Origin: Oscillospiraceae bacterium
GTDB taxonomy: Bacteria; Bacillota; Clostridia; Oscillospirales; Oscillospiraceae
Assembly: GCA_017538965.1 (NCBI GenBank)
Contig: JAFYHU010000033.1
Coordinates: 1-34,899, forward strand
Direction: 5' to 3'
DNA: 34,899 nucleotides
In this document: positions 141 to 20,362 of the stretch, piece by piece
Layout: each line of letters opens with the position of its first letter
Numbering within the stretch: position 1 is the stretch's first letter
Translations under genes and position numbers: made by a program
The notes under the pieces: generated by a model
Seen by the model: only the letters and a program-made list of their open reading frames with translations
Databases searched by the model: none
What the model was told of the DNA's origin: nothing

Positions 141-186
141 GTGTGATAGTTTTGTGACATTTCCCGTGATATGATAGGCTCACAAG
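141..186 (+). promoter_or_regulatory. Promoter/operator of leader peptide A, shared with peptide B
   Basis: This 46-bp block matches 20088-20133 at 35 of 46 positions without gaps. It contains an extended -10 (TG-A-TATGAT, 167-175) and a weak -35 (TAGTTT, 147-152) at 17-bp spacing. Three GTGA copies at 143, 154 and 166 lie on one face of the helix, 11 and 12 bp apart, and the same spacing recurs in the second copy. Phased direct repeats of this kind can be activator sites, but the regulator is unknown. The block begins three bases after the hairpin of the putative element end. Confidence 0.65.
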
Positions 187-216
187 CTGAAAATACACTC
201 TCAGGAGGTGTCTGAA

Positions 217-486
217 ATGGATAAAGTCAAAGGGAAACAGTCTCTGGACGATGAAGCTCTGGATCAGGTTTCCGGCGGGATTGAGCTTACCACGCTGATC
301 AACAAGGATTTCAGCGGCAGGAAGAAGGATAAATCTGCGAAGCCTCTTGTCTACAAGGGCGAAATGGTGCATGCCGGCGGTCTTGTCTATTACGGAGGAA
401 CCGGAAACGGCCTTACGATGAACAATCTCACCGTTCAGAATACGGGCAATCAGGACGATGAAGACAACTTCCTGATTCCCGTGTGA
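217..486 (+). CDS. Small double-glycine-leader peptide A (89 aa)
   Basis: The ATG at 217 is chosen because AGGAGG (203-208) lies 8 bases upstream; a GTG at 208 would overlap that site. Residues 9-21 (SLDDEALDQVSGG) match the Gly-Gly leader consensus of bacteriocin-type and secreted signalling peptides, which are cut after GG by C39-peptidase ABC exporters. The remainder (about 68 aa) is polar and rich in G, N and T, starts with I-E, has GG pairs near the middle, and has no cysteine, so lanthionine or sactionine bridges are excluded. The leader closely resembles that of the peptide at 20165. No C39 transporter, immunity gene or modifying enzyme lies nearby. It is a single-gene transcript with its own promoter and terminator. 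The leader-type assignment is good; the function is unknown. Confidence 0.75.
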   Translation: MDKVKGKQSLDDEALDQVSGGIELTTLINKDFSGRKKDKSAKPLVYKGEMVHAGGLVYYGGTGNGLTMNNLTVQNTGNQDDEDNFLIPV

Positions 487-510
487 TCCGGACACGGTAA
501 ACATTCACAG

Positions 511-540
511 GGCACTCTGCCTCGGCAGAGTGCCGTTTTT
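511..540 (+). terminator. Intrinsic terminator of peptide A
   Basis: A perfect 10-bp GC-rich stem (511-520/525-534) with a CTCG tetraloop is followed by G and five T (536-540). It sits 24 bases after the peptide A stop and isolates that gene from the GNAT gene. Confidence 0.92.
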
Positions 541-544
541 ATAG

Positions 545-573
545 TGGAAATATCCTGAGACATGCGGTAAGAT
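545..573 (+). promoter_or_regulatory. Promoter of the GNAT gene
   Basis: TGGAAA (545-550), 17 bp, TAAGAT (568-573). Transcription would start near 580, which is compatible with the ribosome site at 597-600 and a GTG start at 609. The same unusual -35 hexamer with 17-bp spacing occurs at 1089 and 5408. Confidence 0.55.
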
Positions 574-608
574 AAGAATTGAAATATCAGGATTGTGAGG
601 ATGCTGCC

Positions 609-1055
609 GTGATTTTCAGAGAGATTGTTGACAACAGGCGGGATTATCTTCCCCTGCTTCTGCTTGCCGATGAGCAGGAGAACCTGATCGACCTCTATCT
701 TGCCAGAGGGACGATGATCGTTCTTGAGGAAGACGGAATTGCAAAGGGCGAATGCGTCGTAACGGACGAGGGAGACGGAGTTCTGGAGATCCAGAACCTC
801 GCTGTAGCTCCGGAGTATCAGGGAAGAGGATACGGAAAGATGCTGATTGACTTTGTAGCAGCCCGGTACTGCAGCCAATACCGGGAGCTTCAGGTCGGCA
901 CGGGCGACAGTCCTCTGACTCTGCCGTTTTATGAACACTGCGGATTTGTCCGCCATCATACCATTCGCAATTACATGCTTGAACACTATGACCATCCCAT
1001 CTTCGAAGGCGGCAAGCAGCTGATCGATAAGGTTTATCTGCGCAAATTCCTGTAA
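609..1055 (+). CDS. GNAT-family N-acetyltransferase (148 aa)
   Basis: This is a putative acetyl-CoA-dependent N-acetyltransferase. The acetyl-CoA loop QGRGYG is at about residues 71-76, preceded by the beta-4 strand (VLEIQNLAVAP), and PFYEHCGF is the typical C-terminal GNAT motif. The family starts with a short segment leading into LLLLADEQE, which fits the GTG at 609 with GAGG at 597-600. A longer in-frame TTG start at 579 lacks a ribosome site and would lie only five bases from the -10. The gene stands alone between the peptide A terminator and the phosphatase promoter. The substrate is unknown. Confidence 0.85.
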   Translation: MIFREIVDNRRDYLPLLLLADEQENLIDLYLARGTMIVLEEDGIAKGECVVTDEGDGVLEIQNLAVAPEYQGRGYGKMLIDFVAARYCSQYRELQVGTGDSPLTLPFYEHCGFVRHHTIRNYMLEHYDHPIFEGGKQLIDKVYLRKFL

Positions 1056-1088
1056 TTTTCAGACATGCCGTCATCCCTGTTTTTTGTG

Positions 1089-1117
1089 TGGAAAAATTCA
1101 TACTTCCGGTGTATAAT
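1089..1117 (+). promoter_or_regulatory. Promoter of the phosphatase-glycosidase operon
   Basis: A perfect -10, TATAAT (1112-1117), lies 17 bp after TGGAAA (1089-1094). The first 9 bases (TGGAAAAAT) are identical to those of the promoter at 5408. Confidence 0.65.
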
Positions 1118-1169
1118 ACATTGTTATGATTTTCTGCGCTGTTTTAACTCATAAGGGAGCTGACCGGAT

Positions 1170-1874
1170 TTGACCAGAATTTTATTTGTATGCCACGGAA
1201 ATATCTGCCGCAGTCCTGCTGCAGAAATTTTGTTCCGCGATATGACGGTCCGCTGCGGGCTTGAGGAAGAATATCCCGTTTCTTCTGCTGCCACGACTTC
1301 GGAAGAGATCGGCAATCCCGTTTATCCGCCGATGCGCCGTCTTCTGGAAGAACGCGGTTATGACTGCACCGGAAAAACAGCCCGGAAAGTCAGAAGATCG
1401 GACTATGCCTGCTATGATCTGATCATCGGCATGGATGATGAAAACCGCTGGGATCTGAGGCGTATTTTCCACGGAGATCCGGAAGGCCGGATTCATAACC
1501 TTCTGGAATACCTGGGCCGCGGATCGGAATCCATTCCGGATCCCTGGTATACGCGGGATTTTTCCGGATGTCTGGATGTGATCGAGCAGGCCTGCTACGC
1601 TCTGCTGGAAAAGCTGAGCGGTGTCGTGTTTCTTGATTTTTCCTCCTGTGCCGACATCCCGGCCCTGTATTCCGAGATGCGCCAGAAAATGGCCTGGGAA
1701 GACTGGTACGGGGATAATCTGGATGCTCTTCATGACATTTTGACCGGGCTTCCTCATCGGGGCTCCCGTTTCATTCTGACCCTGCCTTCGGAGGATGCGC
1801 CGCCGGAGGTTTGCCTCTACGCCGATCGTATTGCTTCGGTATTTCAAGAGTTCGAAAAGGATAATCCAACATGA
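1170..1874 (+). CDS. Low-molecular-weight protein tyrosine phosphatase fused to a barstar domain (234 aa)
   Basis: The start is TTG at 1170, with AAGGGAG (1153-1159) 10 bases upstream. Residues 1-150 are a LMW-PTP: the P-loop C8-x5-R14-S15 (CHGNICRS) and the general-acid DP pair at 124-125 are both present, so the enzyme should be active. Residues about 152-234 match barstar-type RNase inhibitors (FLDFSSC..., WYGDNLDALHD at about 179-189). Either domain is normally a complete protein of 85-160 aa. The stop overlaps the next gene by four bases (ATGA), implying translational coupling. LMW-PTPs often reverse BY-kinase phosphorylation in surface polysaccharide export; the glycosidase next door fits a surface role, but that is inference. 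The role of the barstar part is unknown. Confidence 0.87.
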   Translation: MTRILFVCHGNICRSPAAEILFRDMTVRCGLEEEYPVSSAATTSEEIGNPVYPPMRRLLEERGYDCTGKTARKVRRSDYACYDLIIGMDDENRWDLRRIFHGDPEGRIHNLLEYLGRGSESIPDPWYTRDFSGCLDVIEQACYALLEKLSGVVFLDFSSCADIPALYSEMRQKMAWEDWYGDNLDALHDILTGLPHRGSRFILTLPSEDAPPEVCLYADRIASVFQEFEKDNPT

Positions 1875-2908
1875 GTTCCTCTGTATCATCCCGCAAAAAA
1901 CGGCATCCGGTCGGGCGTTTCTTTGCCTTTCTGGGTGTGACTTTGTTATGCCTGATTCTGACCCTCCTCGGTCTGATCTGGGTGCTGGAACGCGGTCCGT
2001 CTCCGACCGTCACCGCTATGTTTACCCGTTCCGTCCGTGAAACCAGTGCCATCCGCTGGATCAGCAACATCTTTCTCAGTGAGGAAGAACTGGAAAGCTA
2101 TAAAAGCGTCAGCACCGAGAACACCGTCACCGAAGCGGTCAACACCTCCCTGATCCATATTGCAGAAGGGACGGAAGCTGTCCCTGTTTCCGAAGCTGTT
2201 AAGCTCGTAGACATTGCGGAAGGCACCTGCAAGGGCAAGCTTCTGATCGTATCCGATCCGAAACAGGTAATTCTCGGAACCTCGGATCAGTTCGTCAAGC
2301 AGCCCGGTCTGCAGCTGACGGACATGGTTGCCAAATATGACGGCATCGCCGGCATCAATGCCGGCGGCTTCAACGACGAAAACGGCAGCGGCAACGGCGG
2401 AATCCCTCAGGGCCTTGTCATTGTAAACGGAGAACTTATCTGGGGAGACGGCACCATTCCGTATCATATGGTCGGCCTGGATGCAGACGGGATCCTTCAT
2501 GTCGGTTCCATGACCGGCAATGCCGCCTTGGAACAGGGAATTCAGTGGGCCGTCAGCTTTATCACCCATGACGGACTGGCTTCCTCGCTGATCATCAACG
2601 GAGAAGTACAGAGGCAGAATCTCGGCGGCGGCGTCAACCCGCGCACCGCACTCGGCCAGCGTGCAGACGGCGCTCTGCTCCTTCTGGTTCTGGACGGCCG
2701 CAGCATCAACACGCTCGGCGCCACGATGCAAGACGTCGTCAACATCATGCTCGAATACGGCGCGGTCAATGCCGGCAACCTGGACGGCGGTTCCTCCTCC
2801 GTGATGGTCTATAACGGGGAAATTATCAATCACTGTGCTTCGGTTACCGGTCCCCGCAGAATTCCGACCGGCTTTATCGTCCTGAAAGAAGGTGCTTCTC
2901 ATGGCTGA
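1871..2908 (+). CDS. Membrane-anchored phosphodiester glycosidase family protein (NAGPA domain, 345 aa)
   Basis: A basic N-terminus and one transmembrane helix (about 17-39) are followed by an extracellular region. Residues about 120-343 match the NAGPA/phosphodiester glycosidase domain: GIAGINAGGF near 160, NPRTALGQ, and the C-terminal NAGNLDGGSSSVMVYNG. Family members cleave sugar-1-phosphodiester links and in bacteria are often found with exopolysaccharide or teichoic acid genes. The ATG overlaps the phosphatase stop by four bases, and the next gene's ATG lies inside this gene's end, so the three form a tight operon. The substrate cannot be read from sequence. Confidence 0.85.
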   Translation: MSSSVSSRKKRHPVGRFFAFLGVTLLCLILTLLGLIWVLERGPSPTVTAMFTRSVRETSAIRWISNIFLSEEELESYKSVSTENTVTEAVNTSLIHIAEGTEAVPVSEAVKLVDIAEGTCKGKLLIVSDPKQVILGTSDQFVKQPGLQLTDMVAKYDGIAGINAGGFNDENGSGNGGIPQGLVIVNGELIWGDGTIPYHMVGLDADGILHVGSMTGNAALEQGIQWAVSFITHDGLASSLIINGEVQRQNLGGGVNPRTALGQRADGALLLLVLDGRSINTLGATMQDVVNIMLEYGAVNAGNLDGGSSSVMVYNGEIINHCASVTGPRRIPTGFIVLKEGASHG

Positions 2909-4295
2909 AGAAAATCGCCGCAGGAAGGACCGCTGGGGACTGTTTCTGCTGATCTGGACGCTGGTGCTCCTGCTGATCGGTGCCGGCTGCTGTTTTGTAC
3001 TCTATCAATATCTGTCTGTGTATGAAGACACCCGCCCCGAACCGGTTGTGGAAGCTTATCTGGCTGAAAACAACACCGAGCAGCTTCTGACAGCCGCCCG
3101 GAACAATGTTCGGCTGGAGGTCACGGAATTCGAAGACGCCTCCGACCTCTTTGACGCCTATCTTTCCTCGATTGACACCGACCGCTCGCTGACGTATCGA
3201 TTCAGCAGCAAAGACAGTGACGATCAGCATCTGGTTTATATTATCTATTGCGGAAACAGCGAGATCTGTTCTCTGGTCTTAATCCCGGAGGACGATTCTC
3301 CGGGATTCGACCGTCATCACTGGAAGATATCGGATGTGCGCTGTGCGCCGATTACCGAAATGCTTCCCTCTCTCAATGTTGTCGTGGATGCGCTGGCCGG
3401 AGAAGAGCTCTCTTTGAATGACATTGTTCTGACGGCCGACTATATCACGGATTCCGATATCCCCATTCCCGATCTGAACAAGGTGGAGTCCTCGCTTTCA
3501 CCTGAGCCGCATCTTGTCCGCTATGAAGTCGGTCCTCTCTACGGAGAAATCAAGGTCAGCGACGAACGGGGCAATACGCTCTCCCCTGTCGGTGATGCGG
3601 CTGACGGAACTCTGCGTTTTTCCGTCTCGGCGGAGACGCACAGTCTGCGGATTCGCACGCCGGAGGATCTGCACGTTTTCGTCAACGGGGTAGAGCTTGG
3701 GCCTGAGGATGTCGTTTCCTCGACGCTCGGCGTGCTGGAAGGTCTTGATGTTTACACGCAGGGTGCCTCCTGTCTCACCAACATCTATGAGCTCAACGGG
3801 CTGTATACCGTTCCGACGGTAACGGCGGTGGATGCGGAAGGCCGCAATGTCACTCCGGTTGCCGCAGCGGAAAACAACTTTACTTTCTTCCATCCCGGCG
3901 ATGCCGTCACGGAAGAAATTCTCCGGCCCTCGGCAGAACAGTTTTTCAATGCCTATATGGACTATTCCGCACACGCTTATGATGCCACACGGTATTATAA
4001 TCTTCTCAACCGGATCCTGCCCAAAACTTATCTTTATGAGTATGTTTCCACTTCCGACCAGGCCATGTACTGGGCTTCCGGCACCTCCACGGAATATAAA
4101 GATCTGCGGTATGAGAATTTCCACAAGGTAAGCGATTACTGCTGCACCTGCACGGTCATTTACAGTGCGGACATGACCGCCACGAGCTGGTATGAGCAGT
4201 ACAGCTACAGTCTGGAAAACGCGTATGAGCTTGCCTTTGTCAGCGAGCGTGGCAACTGGTACTGTGCCGCGATGAACGTGATCACGGCAAGCTGA
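2901..4295 (+). CDS. Membrane-anchored extracytoplasmic protein of unknown function (464 aa)
   Basis: I do not recognise a specific family. The ATG at 2901 is preferred to a GTG at 2892 because AAGAAGG (2886-2892) is then 8 bases away. One transmembrane helix lies at about 13-36 with a basic cytoplasmic tail, and the rest should be outside the cell. The middle contains a short segment (about DLHVFVNGVEL) like the immunoglobulin-like repeats of TcaA-type proteins, and the C-terminal 120 residues look like an NTF2-like alpha+beta fold; both are weak impressions. It overlaps the glycosidase stop by eight bases and is the last gene of the phosphatase operon, so it probably acts in the same surface process. 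Confidence 0.75.
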   Translation: MAEENRRRKDRWGLFLLIWTLVLLLIGAGCCFVLYQYLSVYEDTRPEPVVEAYLAENNTEQLLTAARNNVRLEVTEFEDASDLFDAYLSSIDTDRSLTYRFSSKDSDDQHLVYIIYCGNSEICSLVLIPEDDSPGFDRHHWKISDVRCAPITEMLPSLNVVVDALAGEELSLNDIVLTADYITDSDIPIPDLNKVESSLSPEPHLVRYEVGPLYGEIKVSDERGNTLSPVGDAADGTLRFSVSAETHSLRIRTPEDLHVFVNGVELGPEDVVSSTLGVLEGLDVYTQGASCLTNIYELNGLYTVPTVTAVDAEGRNVTPVAAAENNFTFFHPGDAVTEEILRPSAEQFFNAYMDYSAHAYDATRYYNLLNRILPKTYLYEYVSTSDQAMYWASGTSTEYKDLRYENFHKVSDYCCTCTVIYSADMTATSWYEQYSYSLENAYELAFVSERGNWYCAAMNVITAS

Positions 4296-4412
4296 TTCCC
4301 TCCCGGCAAAATGGCTGTATCATCATGTCGAGTTTCCCTCCCAATCAAGTTGTACTGTTTCGCGGCCAGGGCAGCTGCAGCCCCTGACGTACCGGTTGCT
4401 GCCGCGAATGGA

Positions 4413-4650
4413 TAGAATAGAGAGTTTATATCTCTATATAAAACGCGGCGGGGAAAGGTTCGTGCGAGGTACCAGATAGTCTTCCGCGTAAATGCAAAAA
4501 GCTGAAGTCGGGCTTTTTGTCTGCAGGCGCAGAGATTGCGGAGCGATCTGGGGATCGCTCCCTACGAGATTCTCTAACAAAAAAGGCGCGGAAGAGAAAC
4601 CTGAGTTCGAGAAACCAGTTTCTCTTCTGCGCAATTGCAGAAAGGTGAGA
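4413..4650 (+). other. Structured intergenic region, candidate non-coding RNA or mobile repeat
   Basis: Between the genes ending at 4295 and 4697 there is no convincing coding sequence, but several helices follow one another: ATAGAGA 4417-4423/4431-4437; ACGCGG 4443-4448/4484-4489; AAAAAGC 4496-4502/4512-4518; a 9-bp stem 4540-4548/4553-4561 with loop TGGG; and a 15-bp stem with one G-U pair 4586-4600/4618-4632. They are followed by a terminator at 4653. I see no hallmark of RNase P, tmRNA, SRP or 6S RNA. The stretch 4296-4412 shows nothing I can name. A degenerate dispersed repeat is an equally good reading. Confidence 0.4.
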
Positions 4651-4652
4651 AC

Positions 4653-4694
4653 GGGGTTGTCCAAAAGTATTGAGACAACCCCTTCTTTTTCTCT
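4653..4694 (+). terminator. Intrinsic terminator after the structured region
   Basis: A 9-bp stem GGGGTTGTC (4653-4661) pairs with 4674-4682 and is followed by a T-rich tail. It faces the 3' end of the minus-strand gene ending at 4697. On the minus strand no T-run follows, so it serves plus-strand transcripts. Confidence 0.65.
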
Positions 4695-4696
4695 TG

Positions 4697-5296
4697 TTAT
4701 TCTGTTTCTTCCAGAGCCTGAATCTCTCTGGTCAGCCGGTTGATTTTGGATACCAGATCCTCCGGCAGACCTTCACCGGATCCGTCCGTTCTCTCGCTTC
4801 CCGCAATCTTCTGCGGTGCTTCCGGGCTGCTTTCCGATGCGGAATCTTCATCGGCCTTCTCGTCAAAGGCATAAAGCTCATTCATAAACTTCTGCATCTG
4901 GGAATTCAGATACTCCAGGTTCTGCTCTTCCCGCCGGCGCAGCATGTTGAGACAGCTCTCCATCTGTCTGGCTGCGTAGTTGCATCGCTGTTCGGCAAGC
5001 TTCTCCATGGCTGCGCTGTATTCCCTGGCGTCGGACACGATCTTCTCCGCACGTACATGCGCCTTCGACAGGAGTTCCCGATAGGTATCCTGAACTTCTT
5101 TCAGAGATTGCTTATCTTCCCGGTTCTGCTCTTCCTGATTCTCCAGAAGAGAGCGCAGCCGTTCGTTCTCTTCAACCAGATTCTCCGCCATAACCCGGAT
5201 CTCATCGAAGACCATATTGACCTTGTTGGCGTTATAGTATTTTCTTTTTACCACGTCGATCTGGATGGCGTCCAGATAGCTCAGTATATCATCCAT
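4697..5296 (-). CDS. DivIVA-like coiled-coil protein (199 aa)
   Basis: The N-terminal 35 residues (KRKYYNANKVNMVFDEI) resemble the DivIVA/GpsB membrane-binding start, where a GYN-x2-EVD-like stretch precedes the first coiled coil. Residues about 35-140 are continuous heptad-type coiled coil rich in E, Q and R, followed by an acidic, low-complexity linker and a short terminal helix. DivIVA proteins mark cell poles or septa and recruit division or wall-synthesis proteins. The usual conserved Phe and Arg of the membrane loop are not evident, so this is a divergent member. The gene is monocistronic, with its own extended -10 promoter. Confidence 0.75.
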   Translation of the reverse strand: MDDILSYLDAIQIDVVKRKYYNANKVNMVFDEIRVMAENLVEENERLRSLLENQEEQNREDKQSLKEVQDTYRELLSKAHVRAEKIVSDAREYSAAMEKLAEQRCNYAARQMESCLNMLRRREEQNLEYLNSQMQKFMNELYAFDEKADEDSASESSPEAPQKIAGSERTDGSGEGLPEDLVSKINRLTREIQALEETE

Positions 5297-5338
5297 TTTT
5301 CTCGCCCGCCTGAATCAGATTCTGTATGGAATACAGGT

Positions 5339-5367
5339 ATTATAACACAGGATGATTCGTGTCACAA
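5339..5367 (-). promoter_or_regulatory. Promoter of the DivIVA-like gene
   Basis: On the minus strand: TTGTGA (5367-5362), 17 bp, TATAAT (5344-5339), with the extended -10 TG at 5347-5346. It is divergent from the ywaF-family promoter at 5408. Confidence 0.75.
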
Positions 5368-5407
5368 GAGAAAAGCTGTCTTTGTTCGCCTTCCCCGATG
5401 ATTTTTA

Positions 5408-5436
5408 TGGAAAAATCCTGCAAAACGTGTTAAAAT
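5408..5436 (+). promoter_or_regulatory. Promoter of the YwaF-family gene
   Basis: TGGAAA (5408-5413), 17 bp, TAAAAT (5431-5436), with TG at 5428-5429 (extended -10). Confidence 0.65.
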
Positions 5437-5469
5437 GAATCATAGTAAATCTCTTCCGGAGGCGCCGCA

Positions 5470-6258
5470 ATGGGTACAAATGCCGATTTTTGGATCATCA
5501 GGCCGTTCAACACGATTTTCAATCTCGTTTTTGCTTTCTTTCTGCTGATTCTGATTCTCTCCAGTCTGCTTCTCAGAAACAAGAGCGAAAAGACGCGTCA
5601 GACGGTTCTGGTCTCCGCCTGCGTGCTGACCCTGATCGGTTTTCTTGTCTATAAATACTATCTGTCAATCGATGAGGCCTTTAATGTCATTACGGCTTCC
5701 AAGGGCGGCTTCAACTGGTGGGGCGAGCTTCCTCTGCAGATGTGCAACATCAACATGATTCTGATTCCGATTGCCGTAATGAAGAAAAGCCGGCCTTTGA
5801 TGAGCTTCTGTTTCTTTCTCGGCCCTCTCGGCGCTATGATGGCTCTGGCCATGCCGGGAATCGGTTTTGACGGTTATTCTCTGCTTCTGCCCCGCATGCT
5901 CGGTTATTACGGAACCCATTTCATGGTTGTGATCGAAGGACTGGCGATTGTGACCTACGGTTTCTTCCGTCCGACCTTTCGCGATCTTCCCCGCACGCTC
6001 CTTGCCGCAGTCGTGATTTCCTTCTGCATCTTTATGTTCAACATGCTGCTGCGCTGGACGGAGCTTCACCCGAATGCCAATTACTTCTTCTCCGTCGAAA
6101 CCGAAGGGAATTTCCTTCTTGAGATCTTCCATTCCTGGATTCCTGTGGCCTTTCTGTATCAGATCCCCTGTATTCTGATTCTCGGCCCCTATATGCTGCT
6201 GATTACCTCTGCATTTGCACTTGCCGACCGCATCCGGTCAAAAAAAGCCTCCAAATAG
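5470..6258 (+). CDS. YwaF/TIGR02206 family integral membrane protein (262 aa)
   Basis: The ATG has GGAGG (5458-5462) 7 bases upstream. About six or seven hydrophobic helices span the protein. The family signature around ELPLQMCNINMILIPIAV (about 87-104), with the following FFLGPLGAMMALAMP, is clear. YwaF proteins are small polytopic membrane proteins of unknown function. The next small gene starts 32 bases after the stop and has its own ribosome site, so the two may be co-transcribed. Confidence 0.85.
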   Translation: MGTNADFWIIRPFNTIFNLVFAFFLLILILSSLLLRNKSEKTRQTVLVSACVLTLIGFLVYKYYLSIDEAFNVITASKGGFNWWGELPLQMCNINMILIPIAVMKKSRPLMSFCFFLGPLGAMMALAMPGIGFDGYSLLLPRMLGYYGTHFMVVIEGLAIVTYGFFRPTFRDLPRTLLAAVVISFCIFMFNMLLRWTELHPNANYFFSVETEGNFLLEIFHSWIPVAFLYQIPCILILGPYMLLITSAFALADRIRSKKASK

Positions 6259-6290
6259 AAGCGTTCGAAACGGGAAAAGAGGTGCTGCCT

Positions 6291-6482
6291 TTGAACAGGT
6301 TCATACCGTATGAAAAGCTCTCAAAAAAGGAAAAGAGAGCCGTCAACGCTCAGAAGCGCGGCGTCTGGCGAATCAGCCCGGTCACCCGCCGGCCTGACAA
6401 TCCCAAAGCCTACAAAAGAAAGAAAGCACGGATCCGGGAGGATGATCCCGACACCGAGCTTTCTTTTTTCATTGTTCCATGA
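6291..6482 (+). CDS. Small basic protein, unknown (63 aa)
   Basis: The start is decided by the ribosome site: AGAGG (6278-6282) is 8 bases from TTG 6291, whereas an in-frame GTG at 6282 would overlap it. The protein ([15 protein letters not shown]..., then NPVTRRP-like and KAYKRKKAR) is strongly basic with an acidic, hydrophobic tail. It looks like a real conserved short Clostridial protein, but I know no function. Its 3' end overlaps the 3' end of yifB by 14 bases in convergent orientation and contains a hairpin terminator before its own stop codon (see 6420-6469). Confidence 0.6.
6420..6469. terminator. Bidirectional terminator inside overlapping convergent gene ends
   Basis: AAGAAAGC (6420-6427) pairs with GCTTTCTT (6458-6465), with an inner CGGGA/TCCCG stem (6435-6439/6446-6450). 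Runs of T follow on the plus strand (6464-6469), and a T-rich GCTTTCTTTCTTTT occurs on the minus strand. It lies just beyond the yifB stop but inside the last 21 codons of the small plus-strand gene. Confidence 0.65.
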
Positions 6483-11155: not shown

Positions 11156-11176
11156 GATCAAACTCTCACTTTCATT

Positions 11177-11211: not shown

Positions 11212-11222
11212 CTGGTTTTTGC

Positions 11223-11627
11223 TTATCGTTTTTTCGGGTTGACGATGTTTCGCCAATCCAGATCGCCGCGCCGCAGGCCCTGTACCAGAACCTCGGCCGT
11301 CGCCGCGTTGGTGGCGAAGGGAATCTGATACTGGTCGCACAGGCGTTCGACCTTGTTGATGTCCTCGAAGCCCTTCGGGTTGGAAGGATCGCAGAAGAAG
11401 AGGACCAGGTCGATTTCGTTATAGGAGATGCGGGAGCCGATCTGCTGGGCTCCGCCCTGATCGGCGTGCAGGTAAAGGGTGATCGGCAGGCCGGTTGCTT
11501 CGGAGACCAGTTTGCCTGTCACATGGGTCGCGCAGAGATTATGCTCAGCGAGGATGCCGCAGTAAGCAATGCAGAACTGAACCATCAGTTCTTTTTTTCT
11601 GTCATGCGCCATTAAGGCAATGTTCAT
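11223..11627 (-). CDS. mgsA: Methylglyoxal synthase-like protein with altered catalytic site (134 aa)
   Basis: Length, the N-terminal IALMAHDRKK, the TG-x6-TGL stretch and the C-terminal IPFATNAATAE assign it to the MgsA/MGS-like fold, which in true MgsA turns dihydroxyacetone phosphate into methylglyoxal. The phosphate/catalytic loop that is normally GPxGGDQQ reads ADQGGAQQ (about 55-62), so the catalytic Asp (Asp71 in E. coli) is Ala60. The PHxxD segment is KGFED, so the catalytic His (His98) is missing; His8 is kept. Its position after mreC-mreD-PBP2 is that of mgsA in Clostridia. It may have lost synthase activity and become a binding or regulatory domain. GGAGG is 7 bases before the ATG, and it has its own promoter. 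Confidence 0.85.
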   Translation of the reverse strand: MNIALMAHDRKKELMVQFCIAYCGILAEHNLCATHVTGKLVSEATGLPITLYLHADQGGAQQIGSRISYNEIDLVLFFCDPSNPKGFEDINKVERLCDQYQIPFATNAATAEVLVQGLRRGDLDWRNIVNPKKR

Positions 11628-11678
11628 GGATGCTCCTCCAATTCAGCGTTTCTTTCTCCGCTCCTTTTTTGACAATTT

Positions 11679-11707
11679 ATTATACCCGTATTTTCAGAAT
11701 AGTTCAA
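11679..11707 (-). promoter_or_regulatory. Promoter of the MGS-like/hisS/aspS/yifB operon
   Basis: On the minus strand: TTGAAC (11707-11702), 17 bp, TATAAT (11684-11679). This is a near-consensus sigma-A promoter in the 110-bp gap after PBP2, so the downstream tRNA synthetase genes need not depend on the mre promoter. Confidence 0.87.
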
Positions 11708-11737
11708 GGGAAAATCCGCCTGAAAACCATACTTTTT

Positions 11738-13858: not shown

Positions 13859-13869
13859 GCGATGCTCCT

Positions 13870-14385
13870 TTACTCAAATCTGCTCATGCGAGAGGGCGGG
13901 AAATAGACCAGCGCGGCAAACGGCAGCGACCAGAGCGTCTGCAGAAGGCCGGTGGTGATCATGACGGGCGAAAAGCTGTCCGAGGCGGAGGTTTTCAGAA
14001 TCTGGGCCGCTGCCGTAATCAGAAGACCGGCTGTCGCCGCGCCCATATAGGCAAAAAAGCGGCGGTTGATAAAGTAATTGGAGATAAACGCGGCCGCAAA
14101 GCTCAAAGCCGGGAAAAGCAGCGTAAAGAACACCGTGTTCTCAGGAAAGGCCATGTCGGCAAAGATGCCCATGATCATGCTGAAAACCGGGCCCCAGGTT
14201 GCTCCCTCGAACATGCCCATGGCCACGGCCACGGCCGGCAGCACCAGCGGGCAGACACCGAGAATACGGATCTGGGTAAACAGAATGTTCTGCAGGATCA
14301 GCACAACGATCAGATAGACCGCATATCTGCCGACCTTGCCGAAATTGATTTTTTCAAGAAAATCTTTCGGGATGACGGTTTTCAA
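13870..14385 (-). CDS. mreD: Rod shape-determining protein MreD (171 aa)
   Basis: A small polytopic membrane protein with about five or six helices, whose place between mreC (3-base gap) and PBP2 and whose length match MreD. MreD belongs to the Rod complex with MreC, RodA and PBP2. Sequence conservation in this family is weak, so the call rests partly on gene order. Confidence 0.87.
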   Translation of the reverse strand: MKTVIPKDFLEKINFGKVGRYAVYLIVVLILQNILFTQIRILGVCPLVLPAVAVAMGMFEGATWGPVFSMIMGIFADMAFPENTVFFTLLFPALSFAAAFISNYFINRRFFAYMGAATAGLLITAAAQILKTSASDSFSPVMITTGLLQTLWSLPFAALVYFPPSRMSRFE

Positions 14386-14388
14386 GTC

Positions 14389-15231
14389 TTACTCCACCAC
14401 GTCAAAATCTTTGATGATAAACACCTGCACCAGCGAATCGAGGTTCGCCTGCGGCTGGACGAGGCCGTATTCAATCTGTCCGCCGGCCTCCGTCTGGACG
14501 TTGGTCACCGTACCGATGACCAGGCCTGCCGGAAAGGCACCGCCGGAACCCGAGGTCAGAATCTCGTCCCCGACGAAGATCTGGGCGCCGTCGGCCAGGA
14601 AGGTCAGCTTGGCCAGCTTCTGCTTCATCAGCGAATACTCACCCACGACCATGCCGGAGCTGCCGGTGGTCACGACCGTGCCGCCGACGCTCATGTCGAC
14701 GTCGATCAGCGTGCTCACCGTGGCCCAGGTTTCGCCGAGTTCGGTCACCTGACCGACCAGAGCGCCGTATTCGGTGATGACGGGGTCGCCGTATTCGATG
14801 CCGCTGCGCGCGCCCTTGCTGATCGTAAAGGAGGAGGACCAGTTGGAAGAAGACCACAGAACCACCTTGCTGGATTCCAGCACATAGTCGGAATGTTTGT
14901 CGCGCAGGTTCAGCAGTTCGCGCAGGCGGACATTCTCCTCCGAAGCCTCAATGCCGTCGCGCGCCGACTGCTGGGCATCGGCCAGCTGAGAGCGGAGCGA
15001 TTCGTTCTCGGCCATCAGCGAGTCATAATCATAGAGATATCCGTAAATCGTATCGAACCAGTTTGCCGCCGAGCTGAGCACCTTCTGCAGCGGCGCGGAA
15101 AATGCTCCGCGCGCGTTCTGAATGAAGCCGATCCGGTTGCCTCTCGCAGCCGCGGAAAGGCCGATGATCAGAACCGCGGCGCCAAGAATGAGAGCGACAC
15201 GAATCCCGTTTTTTCTGAGATAATCCTTCAA
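14389..15231 (-). CDS. mreC: Rod shape-determining protein MreC (280 aa)
   Basis: A cytoplasmic tail and one transmembrane helix (about 10-28) are followed by a coiled coil (YLYDYDSLMAENESLRSQL) and the beta-rich MreC domain with SGSGGAFPAGLVIGTV. The TTG at 15231 is chosen because AAAGGAG precedes it by 10 bases and it overlaps the maf stop as TTGA, the usual coupling overlap; a GTG at 15276 would lie deep inside maf. MreC scaffolds PBP2 in lateral wall synthesis. No mreB lies next to it, unlike the common mreBCD order. Confidence 0.92.
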   Translation of the reverse strand: MKDYLRKNGIRVALILGAAVLIIGLSAAARGNRIGFIQNARGAFSAPLQKVLSSAANWFDTIYGYLYDYDSLMAENESLRSQLADAQQSARDGIEASEENVRLRELLNLRDKHSDYVLESSKVVLWSSSNWSSSFTISKGARSGIEYGDPVITEYGALVGQVTELGETWATVSTLIDVDMSVGGTVVTTGSSGMVVGEYSLMKQKLAKLTFLADGAQIFVGDEILTSGSGGAFPAGLVIGTVTNVQTEAGGQIEYGLVQPQANLDSLVQVFIIKDFDVVE

Positions 15232-15803
15232 AGAAGCGATACTCCTTTCGCTGCGAGCATCCTGCCCAGCCTGCACAGCGGCAGACCGACCACGTTAAAA
15301 TAATCCCCTTCGATGGCGCGCACAAACAGCGCCGCCTTTCCCTGAATGCCGTAGGCCCCCGCCTTGTCCATCGGTTCGCGGGTTTCGATATAGCGGCGGA
15401 TCTCCCCGTCGGAAAGCTCGCGGAAGAACACGCGGGTCTTCTCCGCACCGCATGCGGGACCGTCCCTGTCCAGCAGACAGATGCCGGTATAGACTTCATG
15501 ACCGCGCCCGGAAAGCAGGCGCAGCATCCGGAACGCATCTTCTTCGTCCCGGGGCTTTCCGAGGACTTCCCCATCGCAGCAGACGATCGTATCCGCCGCG
15601 ATCACGAGAGCATCCGGGCCGACACGGCCGAACACCTCTTCGGCTTTTCTCCCGGACAGCGCCGTGACGATCGCTTCCGGATCGTCGGTATCCGGCGCCT
15701 GTTCTCCGCCCTTTGCCGGGCAGACGGAAAAGGGCCCGATCTCCAGCGTCTCCAGCAGGTCTCTGCGGCGCGGGGACGCGGAAGCCAGAACAATCCTTCT
15801 CAT
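15228..15803 (-). CDS. maf: Maf family nucleotide pyrophosphatase (191 aa)
   Basis: The start at 15803 gives the family N-terminus RRIVLASASPRRRDLL, and GGGGAG lies about six bases upstream. Conserved signatures are IAADTIV near 70, GKPRDEEDAFRMLRLLSG, and the C-terminal GKAALFVRAIEGDYFNVVGLP. Maf proteins hydrolyse dTTP/UTP or modified nucleotides to monophosphates and are linked to division arrest. It starts two bases after the U32 gene and overlaps mreC by four. Confidence 0.94.
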   Translation of the reverse strand: MRRIVLASASPRRRDLLETLEIGPFSVCPAKGGEQAPDTDDPEAIVTALSGRKAEEVFGRVGPDALVIAADTIVCCDGEVLGKPRDEEDAFRMLRLLSGRGHEVYTGICLLDRDGPACGAEKTRVFFRELSDGEIRRYIETREPMDKAGAYGIQGKAALFVRAIEGDYFNVVGLPLCRLGRMLAAKGVSLL

Positions 15804-15805
15804 GC

Positions 15806-17890
15806 TCACTCCACTCCCCGGTAATAGAGCCCGCGCGTGACCATGTTCGGCCGGTAATCCGACAGGCCGGCATAGCTCCGGGCGACCTCCAGGCATTCCC
15901 GCGCGCTTTCATTCGTAAACAGCAGGCGCATTCCCCAGAGTCCGGACGCCTGAAGCTCCGCCTGTCTGTCCGCCAGGAACAGCTTGTGCGCATTGTAAAT
16001 CACGTTCCGGCAGCCGTATTCCTTCATGACCGGAAAGACCGAGCCGGTACGGTCGGAGAGCTGGCCGGGAATCTGGCAGCTGCACTTTCCGGAGCTCTGT
16101 CGGATGACGCATTGATCGGAAACCATCACAGGCAGACGGCCGTAGATGATCATTTCGGTATCGAGCGGCTTCTGCAGGTCGCGGATCTGGGTAAGGCGCA
16201 GCTCAAACGAGGCCGTCGCCGAGAGGAAGCCCGCCGTCCGAAGCACTTCGAGCGTGCGGGAATTGAAGGCGTTCAGACCGAAATCGCCCCGGACGGCCAT
16301 GCCGGCCTGTCTGGCAATGGCGACATGGCCCATGTTGCCGACCAGCGCTTCGTTCACGCCGAGTTCGTGCAGTTTTTCCAGGGTGCGGAAAACCGGTTCG
16401 GTCTCTTCATCCGTAATCACCCTCGGCAGCACGGCGACCGGAACGGTCTTCCCGGTGAGAAAAGGCATTACGAGGTCAAAGCGCTCGGCCATCAGCATGG
16501 CCGGCACATAGAGATAATTCGGTTTCAGCTCTGCCAGCTCCGGCGTCAGCTGTTCTTCCGTCGTCACCTGAAAAATGGCGGCAGGCTCGCCGGCGGGCTT
16601 ACGGTTCTCCGGCAGCGGCGTGGGCGTCAGAGCGCGGCGTTCGGGCGGCATCATTCTCTTCTCCGAGATTTCGGAAATGAGCTTTCTCCGCAGATCATTG
16701 ATCTCCGCAGCGGAAAGGAAGAGTCCCAGATCGGTTCGGGCCAGATTTTCCGTCACCGTGAACGGCGTCCCGCCGGTCTTATACATCTGTTCTTCCACAA
16801 AAATGGGCGTCACGCCCTGTGTTCTCGCGCGTTCGGGAATCGGGCCGTAGGCAACCGCGCGGTTTCCGTCGTCGTCAAAGGCAATCGCCTTGACGCGCTC
16901 GTCCTTCTTGACGAGCGTATAGAAATGAATGGGAACCCGCCGCATCTCGCCGGAGCCGTATCCCCTTCTGGCTTCCGCGTAAAGCTCGTCCACGTCATCG
17001 TCCTGTTCGGCGCGGACGCCGTGCATGTCTTCCTTCCTGCCGTCCAGATAGCCCTGCGTGAAGCCGCTTCGCGAAAAGGTCTTCTCCAGAATCGCCATTT
17101 CTTCCGGAGTCGGGCGGCGTTTTTCCTTCAGCAGTTTGGCGTAGACGCCGGTCACGATGCCGGTGTATTCGGGGCGCTTCATCCGGCCTTCGATCTTAAT
17201 GCAGCTCACGCCGGCTTCTTCCAGGGCGTCCAGGCGGTCGGCCAGACAGTTGTCCTTCAAGGAAAGCGGATAGTCGTCCATCCGCCCGCCTAGGGAATAC
17301 TGCATGCGGCAGGGCTGGGCGCACATGCCGCGGTTTCCGCTTCTTCTGCCGATCATCGCGGACAGATAGCACTGGCCGGAATGGCAGAAGCACAGCGCGC
17401 CGTGAACGAAGACCTCGGTCTCAACGCCTACGTGCCTGCTGATGCAGCGGATCTCCTCCAGATTCAGCTCGCGTGCCAGGACCACGCGGCTCATGCCCAT
17501 CTCCCGGGCCGCCGCGGCGCCGGCCAGATTGTGAATGCTCATCTGCGTGCTGGCGTGCAGAGGAAGATCGGGGAAAGCGGAGCGGATGGCCTGCGCCATT
17601 CCGAGGTCCTGAACCAGCACGGCGTCCGCGCCTTTTTCGGAGGCGAGCCGCGCCGCGCCCAGGGCCGCGGTCATCTCGCGGTCATTGACCAGCGTGTTCA
17701 GCGTGACATAGACCCTGCAATTGCGCAGATGGCAGTAGCGAACAGCCTTTTCGAACTCTTCCGGTGTGAAATTATGGGCCGAACGGCGCGCGTTGAAATC
17801 CCCGAAGCCGAGATAAACCGCGTCGGCACCGTTCTGTACCGCTGCGATGACTGCCTCCGGCGAACCGGCCGGGGCAAGCAGTTCCATCAT
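15806..17890 (-). CDS. U32 family peptidase / tRNA or rRNA hydroxylation-type protein (694 aa)
   Basis: The ATG at 17890 has GGAGG seven bases upstream. Residues 1-300 are the U32 domain: ELLAPAGSPEAVIAAVQNGADA at the start, and the family signature EVFVHGALCFCHSGQCYLS with cysteines continuing to GMCAQPCR, which could bind an Fe-S cluster. A long C-terminal half follows, also with a cysteine group (about SGKCSCQIPG). Members include RlhA (23S rRNA hydroxylation) and TrhP/TrhO-type tRNA hydroxylation factors; the older collagenase label is doubtful. It is the first gene of the maf-mreCD-PBP2 transcript. Confidence 0.9.
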   Translation of the reverse strand: MMELLAPAGSPEAVIAAVQNGADAVYLGFGDFNARRSAHNFTPEEFEKAVRYCHLRNCRVYVTLNTLVNDREMTAALGAARLASEKGADAVLVQDLGMAQAIRSAFPDLPLHASTQMSIHNLAGAAAAREMGMSRVVLARELNLEEIRCISRHVGVETEVFVHGALCFCHSGQCYLSAMIGRRSGNRGMCAQPCRMQYSLGGRMDDYPLSLKDNCLADRLDALEEAGVSCIKIEGRMKRPEYTGIVTGVYAKLLKEKRRPTPEEMAILEKTFSRSGFTQGYLDGRKEDMHGVRAEQDDDVDELYAEARRGYGSGEMRRVPIHFYTLVKKDERVKAIAFDDDGNRAVAYGPIPERARTQGVTPIFVEEQMYKTGGTPFTVTENLARTDLGLFLSAAEINDLRRKLISEISEKRMMPPERRALTPTPLPENRKPAGEPAAIFQVTTEEQLTPELAELKPNYLYVPAMLMAERFDLVMPFLTGKTVPVAVLPRVITDEETEPVFRTLEKLHELGVNEALVGNMGHVAIARQAGMAVRGDFGLNAFNSRTLEVLRTAGFLSATASFELRLTQIRDLQKPLDTEMIIYGRLPVMVSDQCVIRQSSGKCSCQIPGQLSDRTGSVFPVMKEYGCRNVIYNAHKLFLADRQAELQASGLWGMRLLFTNESARECLEVARSYAGLSDYRPNMVTRGLYYRGVE

Positions 17891-17933
17891 TTCAGCACCT
17901 CCGAATCCTTTCTTCAGCATGTCAGACTTTGAT

Positions 17934-17963
17934 ATTATACCACATCTTTCCCCCTTGCGACAA
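17934..17963 (-). promoter_or_regulatory. Promoter of the U32-maf-mre operon
   Basis: On the minus strand: TTGTCG (17963-17958), 18 bp, TATAAT (17939-17934), with a TG one base upstream of the -10. Its -35 hexamer overlaps that of the divergent promoter at 17955. Confidence 0.8.
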
Positions 17964-17983
17964 GATCATATTCATGCTATAAT
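17955..17983 (+). promoter_or_regulatory. Promoter of the dnaD-like/dnaC-like operon
   Basis: TTGCGA (17955-17960), 17 bp, TATAAT (17978-17983), with an extended -10 TG at 17975-17976. The transcript would carry a leader of about 120 bases containing the inverted repeat at 18016-18097. Confidence 0.85.
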
Positions 17984-18015
17984 TTGAAGACCTCGCAAAT
18001 AATCTGTGAACAATC

Positions 18016-18097
18016 GCGGAACAGGCGGAACCGGGGACTGTCCTCTGTGTCAGTTCCCCCGTAAGAGCTGACACTGTGGGACTGCCCCCTGTTCCGC
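18016..18097. repeat. Imperfect long inverted repeat in the dnaD-like leader
   Basis: GCGGAACAGG (18016-18025) pairs with 18088-18097, and GTGTCAG (18047-18053) with 18068-18074; GGGGACTG/CCCC-type sequence fills the arms between them imperfectly. GC-rich palindromes containing GGGACTGTCC and TGACAC stretches resemble dispersed repeats of Clostridial genomes. It ends 16 bases before the dnaD-like ATG, where a ribosome site would be expected, and none is visible. Confidence 0.75.
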
Positions 18098-18113
18098 CCT
18101 ACTAACATTTACA

Positions 18114-19070
18114 ATGACCAGACAGAATTCCGAAAAACTCATCTCTGTACAGGCAGCGGAGAAGCTGATCTCCCTTCGGGACGGTGACATGACGCTGCTG
18201 TATCTCTATCTGTCTCTGACGGGAAACACGGACCCCGCAAAAGCGGCTCTGGACCTTTTTCTCCCCCGCCAGCGCCTGAACGAAGCCTGGGAGCGCCTGG
18301 AAATGTGCGGTCTGCTCCCCCTCGCAGCGCAGGACAGCTCTTCCCCGGCAGAAGCTCCGGATCCCCGCCCGGCTGCCGTGATCCAGCCCGAACTTCCGGA
18401 ATACAGCGCGGACGACGTCAGGATCCGCAGCGAAAATGACAGCGCTTTCTCCGCCGTCCTGCAGGAGGCACGGCTGATCATGGGCCGCGCACTGAGCACG
18501 CCGGACCTGATCAAGATGCTGGGCATCTACGATCATCTGGACCTGCCCGCCGAAGTCATGATGGAGCTGATGCACTATGTTGCCGACGTCTACCGCGAAA
18601 AATTCGGGGAAAGCCGCCGGCCGACCGCCCGCGCCTTTGAACGGGAAGCGCAGCTCTGGACGGAAAAGAAAATCACGGATTTCGACGCCGCGGAGACCTA
18701 TATCCGCACGATGCGCGAGCGCAGAGGGCTTGAAGCCTCGATCAAGGAAGCCATGGATATCCGCGATCGCGATTTCACCGATACCGAGCGCCGCTTTGTC
18801 GAGCAATGGCTTGATTTCGGCTTTGGTCCGGAGGAGATGCACCTGGCCTACGACAGAGCCGTCACCAAAACGGGCAAGCGTGCGATGGCCTATATGAACG
18901 GCATTCTCCAGAACTGGCACAAAATGAATCTCCACACGCTGAAGGAGATTCAGGAGAAGGACCGCCTCGCCGGCCATCCGGCCCGTTCTTCCGCCCCTGC
19001 CGGAAAGCAGACCATCGACACGAAGAAGCTTGATGAAATCGAGCAGATCATGAAAGGAGCCGGAAAATGA
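18114..19070 (+). CDS. DnaD domain protein (primosome component, 318 aa)
   Basis: DnaD-type proteins remodel DNA at oriC and restart sites and recruit the helicase loader. The N-terminal winged-helix-like part (about 1-75) is followed by an acidic linker, then two DnaB_2/DnaD C-terminal repeats: about 110-185, and about 215-280 with FVEQWLDFGFGPEEMHLAYDRAV and AMAYMNGILQNWH. The architecture and the DnaC-like neighbour (overlap ATGA) are typical of Firmicutes. The start at ATG 18114 gives a sensible N-terminus, but no Shine-Dalgarno sequence is visible; the repeat upstream may have displaced it. Confidence 0.87.
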   Translation: MTRQNSEKLISVQAAEKLISLRDGDMTLLYLYLSLTGNTDPAKAALDLFLPRQRLNEAWERLEMCGLLPLAAQDSSSPAEAPDPRPAAVIQPELPEYSADDVRIRSENDSAFSAVLQEARLIMGRALSTPDLIKMLGIYDHLDLPAEVMMELMHYVADVYREKFGESRRPTARAFEREAQLWTEKKITDFDAAETYIRTMRERRGLEASIKEAMDIRDRDFTDTERRFVEQWLDFGFGPEEMHLAYDRAVTKTGKRAMAYMNGILQNWHKMNLHTLKEIQEKDRLAGHPARSSAPAGKQTIDTKKLDEIEQIMKGAGK

Positions 19071-20062
19071 CGCACAACGGAAGGCTTCTTGCCAGAGCAC
19101 GGGAGGCGCTCGAAGAGGAGCGCCGCATCAACCAGGCCGAGCAGCAGCGGCGCACGGATCTGATCTATCGGGAAATTCCGGAGACGGAGCAGATCGACCG
19201 GCAGATGCGCCGTCAGATGTCGGAGCTGGTGCGGCTGACCCTGAGCAAGCCGGCCGATCTCTCCGAGCGTCTGGAAGCGCTGCGGGAGGATAATCTGGAT
19301 CTCCAGATACGCCGGGCGGAGCTTCTGACCGAGCACGGCTATCCGATCGATTATCTCGACGAGATTTTCAGCTGCAAGCTCTGCCGGGACACGGGCAACG
19401 TAAACGGCGCGCTCTGTTCCTGCATGGAAAAGCGCTATAACCGCGAGCTCACCCGGGAGCTCTCCGGTCTTCTTCATGATGGAGAGGAAAGCTTTGAGCG
19501 CTTTGATCTGAGTCTGTATCCGGATACGCCGGAAGAGACCAGCGGCATCAGCCCGCGCAGCGCCATGTCCATCGTCTTTCAGGCCTGCAGGAGCTTCGCC
19601 GAGAGCTTTCCGGATGTCTCGGCCAATCTGCTTCTCCGCGGTTCGACCGGACTCGGCAAAACCTATCTCTCCGCCTGCATCGCGCAGAAGGTCGCCGAAA
19701 AGGGCTTTTCCGTCTGTTATGATACCGCCGTCTCGGCTCTGGAAGCCTTTGAAAAGCAGAAGTTCTCCCGGATCCCCGAAGAAGCGGAAAACGCCGCCCT
19801 GCGTGTGGACCGGATGCTCTCCTGCGATCTGATGATCCTCGACGATCTCGGCACCGAGATGGTGACCCCCGCTTCGGTCAGCGCGCTGTACACTCTGATC
19901 AACACCCGTCTTTCGCGCGGCAAGCAGACCGTGATCAACACCAACTGCAGCGACGAGGAGCTGCAGCGCCGCTACACTCCACAGATCACCTCGCGCCTGT
20001 TCGGAGAGTATCTGGAACTCCCCTTCTACGGCTCCGACATCCGCCTTCTGATTAAAAATTAA
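19067..20062 (+). CDS. DnaC/DnaI-like replicative helicase loader (331 aa)
   Basis: An AAA+ ATPase that loads the replicative helicase. The N-terminal helical region carries a zinc-binding-like cysteine set C103-x2-C106 and C117-x-C119 (CKLCRDTG...CSC), as in DnaI-type loaders. Walker A is GSTGLGKT (192-199), and Walker B is LMILDDLG (255-262). The C-terminal sensor region (TNCSDEEL...RLFGEY) is IstB/DnaC-like. The ATG overlaps the DnaD-like stop by four bases, so the two are coupled. Confidence 0.91.
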   Translation: MTHNGRLLARAREALEEERRINQAEQQRRTDLIYREIPETEQIDRQMRRQMSELVRLTLSKPADLSERLEALREDNLDLQIRRAELLTEHGYPIDYLDEIFSCKLCRDTGNVNGALCSCMEKRYNRELTRELSGLLHDGEESFERFDLSLYPDTPEETSGISPRSAMSIVFQACRSFAESFPDVSANLLLRGSTGLGKTYLSACIAQKVAEKGFSVCYDTAVSALEAFEKQKFSRIPEEAENAALRVDRMLSCDLMILDDLGTEMVTPASVSALYTLINTRLSRGKQTVINTNCSDEELQRRYTPQITSRLFGEYLELPFYGSDIRLLIKN

Positions 20063-20087
20063 AAAAATCGTAAAATTCCCTCGGAAA

Positions 20088-20133
20088 GTGTGCTTGTTTT
20101 GTGACAGTTCTCATGATACACTATGCTCAGAAA
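20088..20133 (+). promoter_or_regulatory. Promoter/operator of leader peptide B, copy of the block at 141-186
   Basis: Matches 141-186 at 35 of 46 positions. The -35 is TTGTTT (20094-20099), followed by 17 bp and TACACT (20117-20122) with TG at 20114-20115. GTG(A/C), GTGA and ATGA stand at 20090, 20101 and 20113 with the same 11- and 12-bp spacing as in the first copy. The distance from block to AGGAGG differs by only one base between the two loci. Confidence 0.65.
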
Positions 20134-20164
20134 TGATCAATCTGTTTTTCAGGAGGATAAAACG

Positions 20165-20362
20165 ATGACGAAAGAAAGAAAACTTCAGGCGCTGGACGAC
20201 TCCGTCCTTGACGCTGTTACCGGCGGCGTAGAGCAGATTGCTTCCGATCTTCAGAGCAATGATGAAATCCGTGTGAATATATTCGGAAACGAACCGGATT
20301 CCGGTGTCGTGCTGCACAAGAGCCGTATCGGGCAGCTGATCAAGCTGTTCTGGCGGTATTGA
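20165..20362 (+). CDS. Small double-glycine-leader peptide B (65 aa)
   Basis: AGGAGG (20151-20156) lies exactly 8 bases before ATG 20165, as in peptide A; a longer ATG frame from 20123 would start inside the promoter block. The leader contains ALDDSVLDAVTGG, which follows the same pattern as peptide A: LDD-x2-LD-x-V-(S/T)-GG. The 44-residue remainder begins V-E, is mixed charged with a hydrophobic, aromatic and basic end (GQLIKLFWRY), and has no cysteine. The terminal segment could be amphipathic and membrane active, or a receptor-binding pheromone tail. No exporter or modification enzyme is adjacent. It lies directly after the DnaC-like gene but has its own promoter and terminator. Confidence 0.73.
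   Translation: MTKERKLQALDDSVLDAVTGGVEQIASDLQSNDEIRVNIFGNEPDSGVVLHKSRIGQLIKLFWRY

Follow-up and report, generated by a model that had tools for sequence, protein, structure and literature searches.

What joins two short genes that lie 20 kb apart on one contig of an Oscillospiraceae bacterium, and how could their products leave the cell when no exporter is encoded beside either of them? The window, by which we mean the whole stretch of 34,899 nucleotides analyzed here, is an entire contig (JAFYHU010000033.1, our C22) of a 3.39-Mb genome in 91 contigs (the own genome, G000). A first-pass annotation had noticed in it two short open reading frames (ORFs) with matching double-glycine (DG) leaders. 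Both ORFs are present as described (Table 1), and neither contains a cysteine codon. The 46-bp blocks upstream of them, at 141-186 and 20088-20133, match at 35 of 46 positions without gaps, the start of the repeat lies 75 bp (peptide 1) and 76 bp (peptide 2) from the ATG, and both genes have the Shine-Dalgarno sequence AGGAGG, all in line with what had been claimed. That annotation had seen no exporter beside either gene, and the whole window lacks a C39 exporter; the three Peptidase_C39 (PF03412) matches of the genome sit on other contigs (C34, C63 and C13). We propose that both genes belong, as dispersed members, to a single secretion regulon, in which one regulator and one exporter acting in trans would serve many exported mini-proteins, and we put the probability of this reading at roughly 0.7.

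The shared block is a direct repeat, TGTGACA-N4-TGTGACA, with a period of 11 bp, and the repeat pair ends 10 bp 5' of an extended -10 element; by eye, there is no good -35 element. An early pattern recovered both window sites and a third site upstream of another DG gene, and the same block stands upstream of two further DG genes that were found by protein similarity (on C35 and C87). The pattern GTTTTGTGACAGNNNCTGTGMTANNMT, with at most three mismatches, occurs at 25 places in the own genome, both window sites included, and its reverse at none (the count varies between 23 and 25 with the pattern used, again with 0 for the reversed pattern). Because 25 genomic sites stand against none for the reversed pattern, the match between the two window sites is beyond chance. 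Nineteen of the 25 sites are upstream of DG genes, one is upstream of an exporter gene set and five are upstream of other genes, three of these five having TGAGACA instead of TGTGACA as the second repeat. In a test independent of the motif, loci of the own genome were picked by leader profile (29 DG entries, one gene being counted twice) and the 150 bp upstream of each were inspected. Pairs of the words TGTGA or TGTGC at most 45 bp apart occurred only at spacings of 10, 11, 12, 22, 23 and 33 bp, and the strict repeat was found upstream of 12 of the 29 entries, many of the others being later genes in the same arrays.

Among 60 genomes, the own one included, the core pattern TGTGAYNNTTNTGTGAYNNNNNNNNTGNTANNMT, one mismatch being allowed, is present in 14 and the reversed pattern in none; a stricter pattern is present in 11, its reversed controls again giving 0. 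The logo of 144 sites, in which conservation at the pattern's fixed positions follows from how the sites were chosen, reads TGTGAC(a) twice at 11-bp spacing, followed by TG-n-TAnnMT as the extended -10. It also displays a further conserved C-(G/A)-n-A-A at positions +39 to +43, just 3' of the -10 and near the expected transcription start. Exact matches to the core motif in the named genome collection, which may omit records close to the own genome, are confined to two contigs from the metagenome-assembled genomes (MAGs) Ruminococcaceae bacterium RUG10626 and Oscillospiraceae bacterium RGIG3212 (goat reticulum).

To see what the motif precedes, 145 distinct sites from all loci pooled (four of them on the RUG10626 and RGIG3212 contigs) were classified from ORFs starting within 330 bp, by a regular expression and then by correction by eye. 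The script returned 88 DG, 28 Sec-like, 16 other and 13 without a gene, two sites in G013 sharing one gene; the corrected classes are 93 DG, 25 with Sec- or lipoprotein-like N-termini, 14 other and 13 without a called ORF, of which at least four (in L037, L085, L131 and L137) do precede DG genes. As 93 and 25 of the 145 sites fall into the first two classes, the motif would chiefly mark products predicted for export. The first-pass annotation had named occurrence before many unrelated genes as the observation that would count against its proposal; instead, 118 of the 145 sites lie upstream of DG or Sec/lipoprotein-like genes. On these sequences, the motif-linked DG genes almost certainly form a regulon. 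One copy of the motif (L065:1501-1527) stands upstream of a two-gene pair, as if a toxin-antitoxin-like pair had replaced the DG gene; we take its first gene to be nucleotidyltransferase-like and its second to be HEPN-like.

A candidate exporter for this regulon is encoded on C34. There, one strand carries in order the motif, a substrate-binding-protein-like lipoprotein, a histidine kinase, a response regulator (RR_A), an alanine racemase, a STAS protein, a short HlyD-like protein, an NHLM-type ATP-binding cassette (ABC) protein with C39 peptidase (ABC1), a second ABC protein (ABC2), a protein that we presume to be YdcF-like, and a DG-LysM gene. Order and strand suggest that the set is one operon. 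ABC1 passes the cut-off of TIGR03796 (peptidase/permease/ATPase; 933.8 bits, cut-off 853.3) and ABC2 that of TIGR03797 (second permease/ATPase; 741.8 bits, cut-off 709.4); the HlyD-like protein, of 138 amino acids, reaches 33.3 bits with TIGR03794, below the cut-off of 156.2. The C34 exporter probably serves the motif-linked DG genes in trans. The first-pass annotation had supposed processing in trans and had proposed looking for further motif copies and for a C39-peptidase ABC exporter; the searches gave the 25 sites, 19 of them upstream of DG genes, and an exporter operon elsewhere in the genome under the same motif, which at the level of sequence supports its supposition. A second C39 exporter, on C63 (L040:2019-7250), is accompanied by two radical-SAM-like proteins and a methyltransferase-like protein (by eye) and by two Nif11-type Cys-rich precursors that score just above the TIGR03798 cut-off, and the motif scans of the own genome found no match at this locus. 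It is likely a separate locus for ribosomally synthesized and post-translationally modified peptides (RiPPs). The C39 match on C13 belongs to a frame cut short by the contig end, and no ABC part follows its C39 domain.

Divergent from the C34 gene set lies a second response regulator, RR_B, which has orthologues in 12 relatives with 65-70% identity and similar neighborhoods. Scores above 500 bits occur in exactly 13 of the 60 genomes (next best 192 bits), namely in 13 of the 14 genomes with the motif and in none of the 46 others (Fisher p 2.7e-12, uncorrected for relatedness). In an order-level sample of 394 genomes, only the own genome comes near the score of an RR_B orthologue (553 bits; next 224), and an exporter gene shares a stretch with RR_B in 11 of the 13 genomes, own included. 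Mean identity over the 13 sequences is 88.8% for the DNA-binding part and 57.8% for the receiver, as expected for a protein that reads many sites. In the receiver, judged by eye at positions whose roles we assume, we could not make out the usual pair of acidic residues, and one of the 13 sequences has serine in place of the phospho-acceptor aspartate. A profile of 10 RR_B DNA-binding parts matches the Streptomyces antibiotic regulatory proteins (SARPs) EmbR (E 2.3e-5) and AfsR (E 0.013), of a family marked by an OmpR-type winged helix with a BTA domain behind it. In the available part of one account, SARP sites are direct repeats of 11 bp close to the -10 (PMC10936776), and the target promoters here have direct repeats 11 bp apart near the -10. 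Together, these data make RR_B the probable reader of the motif, by direct binding as we infer. RR_A is less likely to be the reader, because RR_A-type regulators occur in same-genus genomes with 0 motif matches (G021, G022, G029, G032 and G035). Two of these, G021 and G022, have the exporter (ABC1 identity 84 and 75%), an RR_A-type regulator and DG LysM/CW_7 genes, and neither an RR_B orthologue nor the motif; in their stretches, RR_A showed no neighboring kinase gene.

The cargo was typed with home-made profiles at E <= 1e-4, close homologues being counted apart. The other genomes are nearly all of the same genus. Loci of other genera from the broad order and class surveys were left out, and a stricter Shine-Dalgarno rule dropped some DG genes; 33 own cores were kept. 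The 77 distinct DG cores from other genomes comprise 39 LysM, 15 CW_7, 7 SH3-like, 4 PepSY, 3 of a beta family, 1 Cys-rich and 8 other, which makes 61 LysM-, CW_7- or SH3-like; the 33 own cores comprise 21 Cys-rich, 4 LysM, 1 SH3-like and 7 other, with both window peptides in the last class, and one own core of that class barely reaches the LysM cut-off (21.0 vs 20.9). Pfam matches include LysM at E 9.4e-20, CW_7 at E 1.2e-29 and PepSY at E 4.4e-11; the Pfam SH3_3 match was below cut-off, and a second SH3-like type gave no SH3 match when tested. Several predicted mature products consist of a LysM domain and almost nothing else. The predominance of LysM, CW_7 and SH3-like cores points to cell-wall binding, and the chances that this is the common theme of the cargo appear about even. 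Of the proposal in the first-pass annotation, a regulon of exported signaling or antimicrobial peptides, the regulon has good support from sequence, with its motif copies, co-occurring regulator and motif-headed exporter operon, but the signaling or antimicrobial part stays conjectural: the 61 cores of other genomes point to the cell wall, one core looks bacteriocin-like by eye, and the 21 Cys-rich own cores are unassigned.

Other features of the cargo are worth recording. Four loci of the own genome (L035, L036, L037 and L039, on C87, C55, C76 and C47) are tandem DG arrays in which the leaders are nearly identical and the cores hypervariable, Cys-rich and zinc-ribbon-like. Such cores are rare in the loci of other genomes (1 of the 77 typed cores, plus L088/L089). 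In one relative, a core that by eye is glycine-zipper-like, as in class IIb bacteriocins, lies under the same motif (L188, G023:C64). A cargo family of about 140-150 amino acids (L077, L082, L123, L124, L131 and L134) is predicted to be all-beta (pLDDT 76); the model of this beta-rich family (A6) has no PDB match at E <= 0.001, the best being 5.1e-3. In a class-level survey that reached beyond the genus, 147 of 391 genomes have a LysM match; among the matches listed, frames shorter than 100 amino acids all come from the own genome.

The window peptides carry the leaders LDDEALDQVSGG (peptide 1) and LDDSVLDAVTGG (peptide 2), both with L(-12), a hydrophobic residue at -7 and GG at -2/-1 near the N-terminus; across the regulon, the leader features are L(-12), L(-7), V(-4) and GG. 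The ComA leader consensus, in the part of the source available, is L(-12), E(-8), L(-7) (PMC6363468), and its E(-8) is missing from both window leaders. The NHLP and Nif11 precursor models do not match the window leaders; the one response was to TIGR04495, weak and below cut-off (E 0.1 for P0001 and 0.16 for P0002). The cores have no domain match in Pfam or NCBIfam. A homologue search of 60 genomes at E <= 0.01 returned peptide 1 alone, and relatives of peptide 2 were sought in the own genome. For the window cores, only export is predicted. Gene 1 is probably monocistronic, because a hairpin and T-run follow it. In the region 5' of the peptide 2 gene (18114-20062), a DnaC/IstB-type ATPase-like gene (PF01695) is preceded by the gene of a DnaB_2-domain protein (18114-19070).

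Table 1. Promoter elements, leaders, genes and putative terminators of the two DG loci in the window.
Feature	Position	Strand	Basis
Regulator box, upstream repeat TGTGATA	142..148	+	core-pattern match 142-175; logo
Regulator box, downstream repeat TGTGACA, 11 bp from first repeat	153..159	+	core pattern; logo
Extended -10, TG-A-TATGAT (hexamer coordinates)	170..175	+	logo; position read from sequence
Shine-Dalgarno AGGAGG, gene 1	203..208	+	read from sequence
DG leader of peptide 1, 21 aa	217..279	+	sequence; leader profile match
DG-leader peptide 1, 89 aa, orphan core	217..486	+	ORF; domain and homologue searches
Hairpin and T-run 3' of gene 1	511..540	+	by eye, no scoring tool
Regulator box, upstream repeat TGTGCTT	20089..20095	+	core pattern; logo
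Regulator box, downstream repeat TGTGACA	20100..20106	+	core pattern; logo
Extended -10, TG-A-TACACT (hexamer coordinates)	20117..20122	+	logo; position read from sequence
Shine-Dalgarno AGGAGG, gene 2	20151..20156	+	read from sequence
DG leader of peptide 2, 21 aa	20165..20227	+	sequence; leader profile match
DG-leader peptide 2, 65 aa, core without domain match	20165..20362	+	ORF; domain searches
Hairpin and T-run 3' of gene 2	20396..20419	+	by eye, no scoring tool

Several observations weigh against a single regulon read by RR_B. As called, 27 of the 145 sites have neither a DG nor a Sec-like gene downstream. One genome with the motif, G009 (65% complete), is without a detected RR_B, no close exporter was seen in the RR_B stretches of G036 and G026, and G021 (79% complete) holds a weak RR_B-like fragment (31% over 117 amino acids). 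RR_B travels with its module, and co-occurrence cannot separate it from the other module genes; moreover, the genomes compared are interrelated and mostly incomplete MAGs. The corresponding identities for RR_A, 59.9 vs 51.6% over 14 sequences that include paralogues, are not like for like with those for RR_B. Pfam Trans_reg_C stays below cut-off for RR_B, and in the structure model of this protein only the receiver is confident, the DNA-binding part having a pLDDT of about 30 and no confident fold. Finally, cell-wall binding cannot be extended to the window cores, because no domain matched them.

The alternatives differ in what they make of the cargo and of the motif. In a Com/Blp-type regulon of class II bacteriocins, the peptides would kill competitors or act as signals, and immunity genes would lie elsewhere. 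Tandem arrays with conserved leaders and highly variable cores would suit it, as would the Cys-rich majority of the own cores and the glycine-zipper-like cargo of one relative. However, most cores of other genomes resemble LysM, CW_7 or SH3 domains and four resemble PepSY, neither window peptide rises above the cut-off of any bacteriocin model in Pfam or NCBIfam, and both regulators have Trans_reg_C/SARP-like DNA-binding parts, with no LytTR domain reported by Pfam. We therefore regard a bacteriocin regulon as unlikely. Much further from probable is the idea that enzymes encoded elsewhere modify the peptides as RiPP precursors, for instance the two radical-SAM-like proteins beside the C63 exporter. 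That such an exporter exists in the genome speaks for it, but the C63 locus carries Nif11-type precursors of its own and showed no motif, on which grounds we rejected the idea; in addition, the window cores are without cysteine, and no modification enzyme was recognized in four DG clusters, a weak test that covered the first 50 residues of ORFs.

Another conceivable reader of the repeats is a global regulator of the envelope (WalR- or PhoP-like), with the DG genes as just one class of targets. The 25 sites upstream of Sec/lipoprotein-like genes are compatible with this, and TGTGA direct repeats with an 11-bp period resemble OmpR-family sites. Yet the motif follows RR_B across the 60 genomes, and the order-level sample contains no second genome near the score of an orthologue, which makes a global regulator a rather improbable reader.

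Together, the data suggest a model for the dedicated secretion regulon. RR_B, a SARP-like regulator with a degenerate receiver, would, once activated or constitutively active, bind the repeats as a side-by-side dimer and recruit RNA polymerase, substituting for a -35 contact, with transcription starting at the extended -10. The DG precursors would be made unmodified, and the C39 exporter would cut them after GG, in trans, releasing the cores outside. Many of these (LysM, CW_7, SH3-like) may then bind peptidoglycan, where they could protect or remodel the wall of the producer, or target competitors. In its full form the model is tentative, at slightly worse than even odds: in one genus of Oscillospiraceae from the gut, a pseudo-receiver SARP-like regulator would open tens of unlinked promoters, and a single C39 exporter would deploy dozens of naked wall- or ligand-binding domains (LysM, CW_7, SH3-like, PepSY, zinc-ribbon-like), which would serve as swappable mini-proteins of the cell surface and not as toxins or pheromones.

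Parts of this arrangement have precedents. The Com/Blp regulons of streptococci likewise have scattered DG-peptide loci that use a common promoter box and a single exporter in trans; here, in contrast, the regulators show no LytTR domain, the cargo of relatives is mostly wall-binding domains, and no separate pheromone was identified. The comparisons that follow extend to the available parts of the papers cited. NHLP/N11P export (NHLM_micro_ABC1/ABC2, TIGR03796/TIGR03797; PMC2887384, PMC3140520) is alike in its two-ABC exporter carrying a C39 peptidase and in its leaders of DG type with hypervariable cores, but the window leaders are short and unmatched by NHLP/Nif11 models, the HlyD-like protein is small and below cut-off, relatives have folded-domain cargo, and there is a dedicated promoter motif with a SARP-like regulator. 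The SARP activators AfsR and EmbR (PMC10936776) have an OmpR-type winged helix, which RR_B would share (the EmbR alignment runs beyond it), and likewise 11-bp direct repeats between -35 and -10; unlike in them, the putative DNA-binding domain of RR_B follows a receiver-like domain, its host is a gut Oscillospiraceae-type bacterium and the predicted targets encode exported peptides. Microcin V type I export (PMC10231218) likewise sends highly diverse small proteins through one system, but it is Gram-negative and generally handles one small protein per system, compared with tens here. The LahT exporter of Lachnospiraceae C6A11 (PMC6363468), also from a gut Firmicute, has a core-tolerant C39 protease and related DG leaders; its nine Nif11-type lanthipeptide precursors lie in one cluster, and a dispersed promoter regulon is not described in the part available. 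Our searches of openly licensed papers brought up nothing that describes DG cargo made of LysM or CW_7 domains (CW_7 was not specifically searched), nor the regulon. The remark in the first-pass annotation that it knew no described family with this exact combination agrees with those searches: exporter, leader type and SARP-type site geometry are of known kinds, and their combination appears to be new.

DG-leader peptides distant from exporters are hard to assign. The motif, regulator and exporter, linked by their co-occurrence across the genus, yield a rule, open to testing, by which tens of exported mini-proteins could be found in each genome. Should lone LysM and CW_7 domains prove to be C39 cargo, the presumed purpose of the C39 route would broaden.

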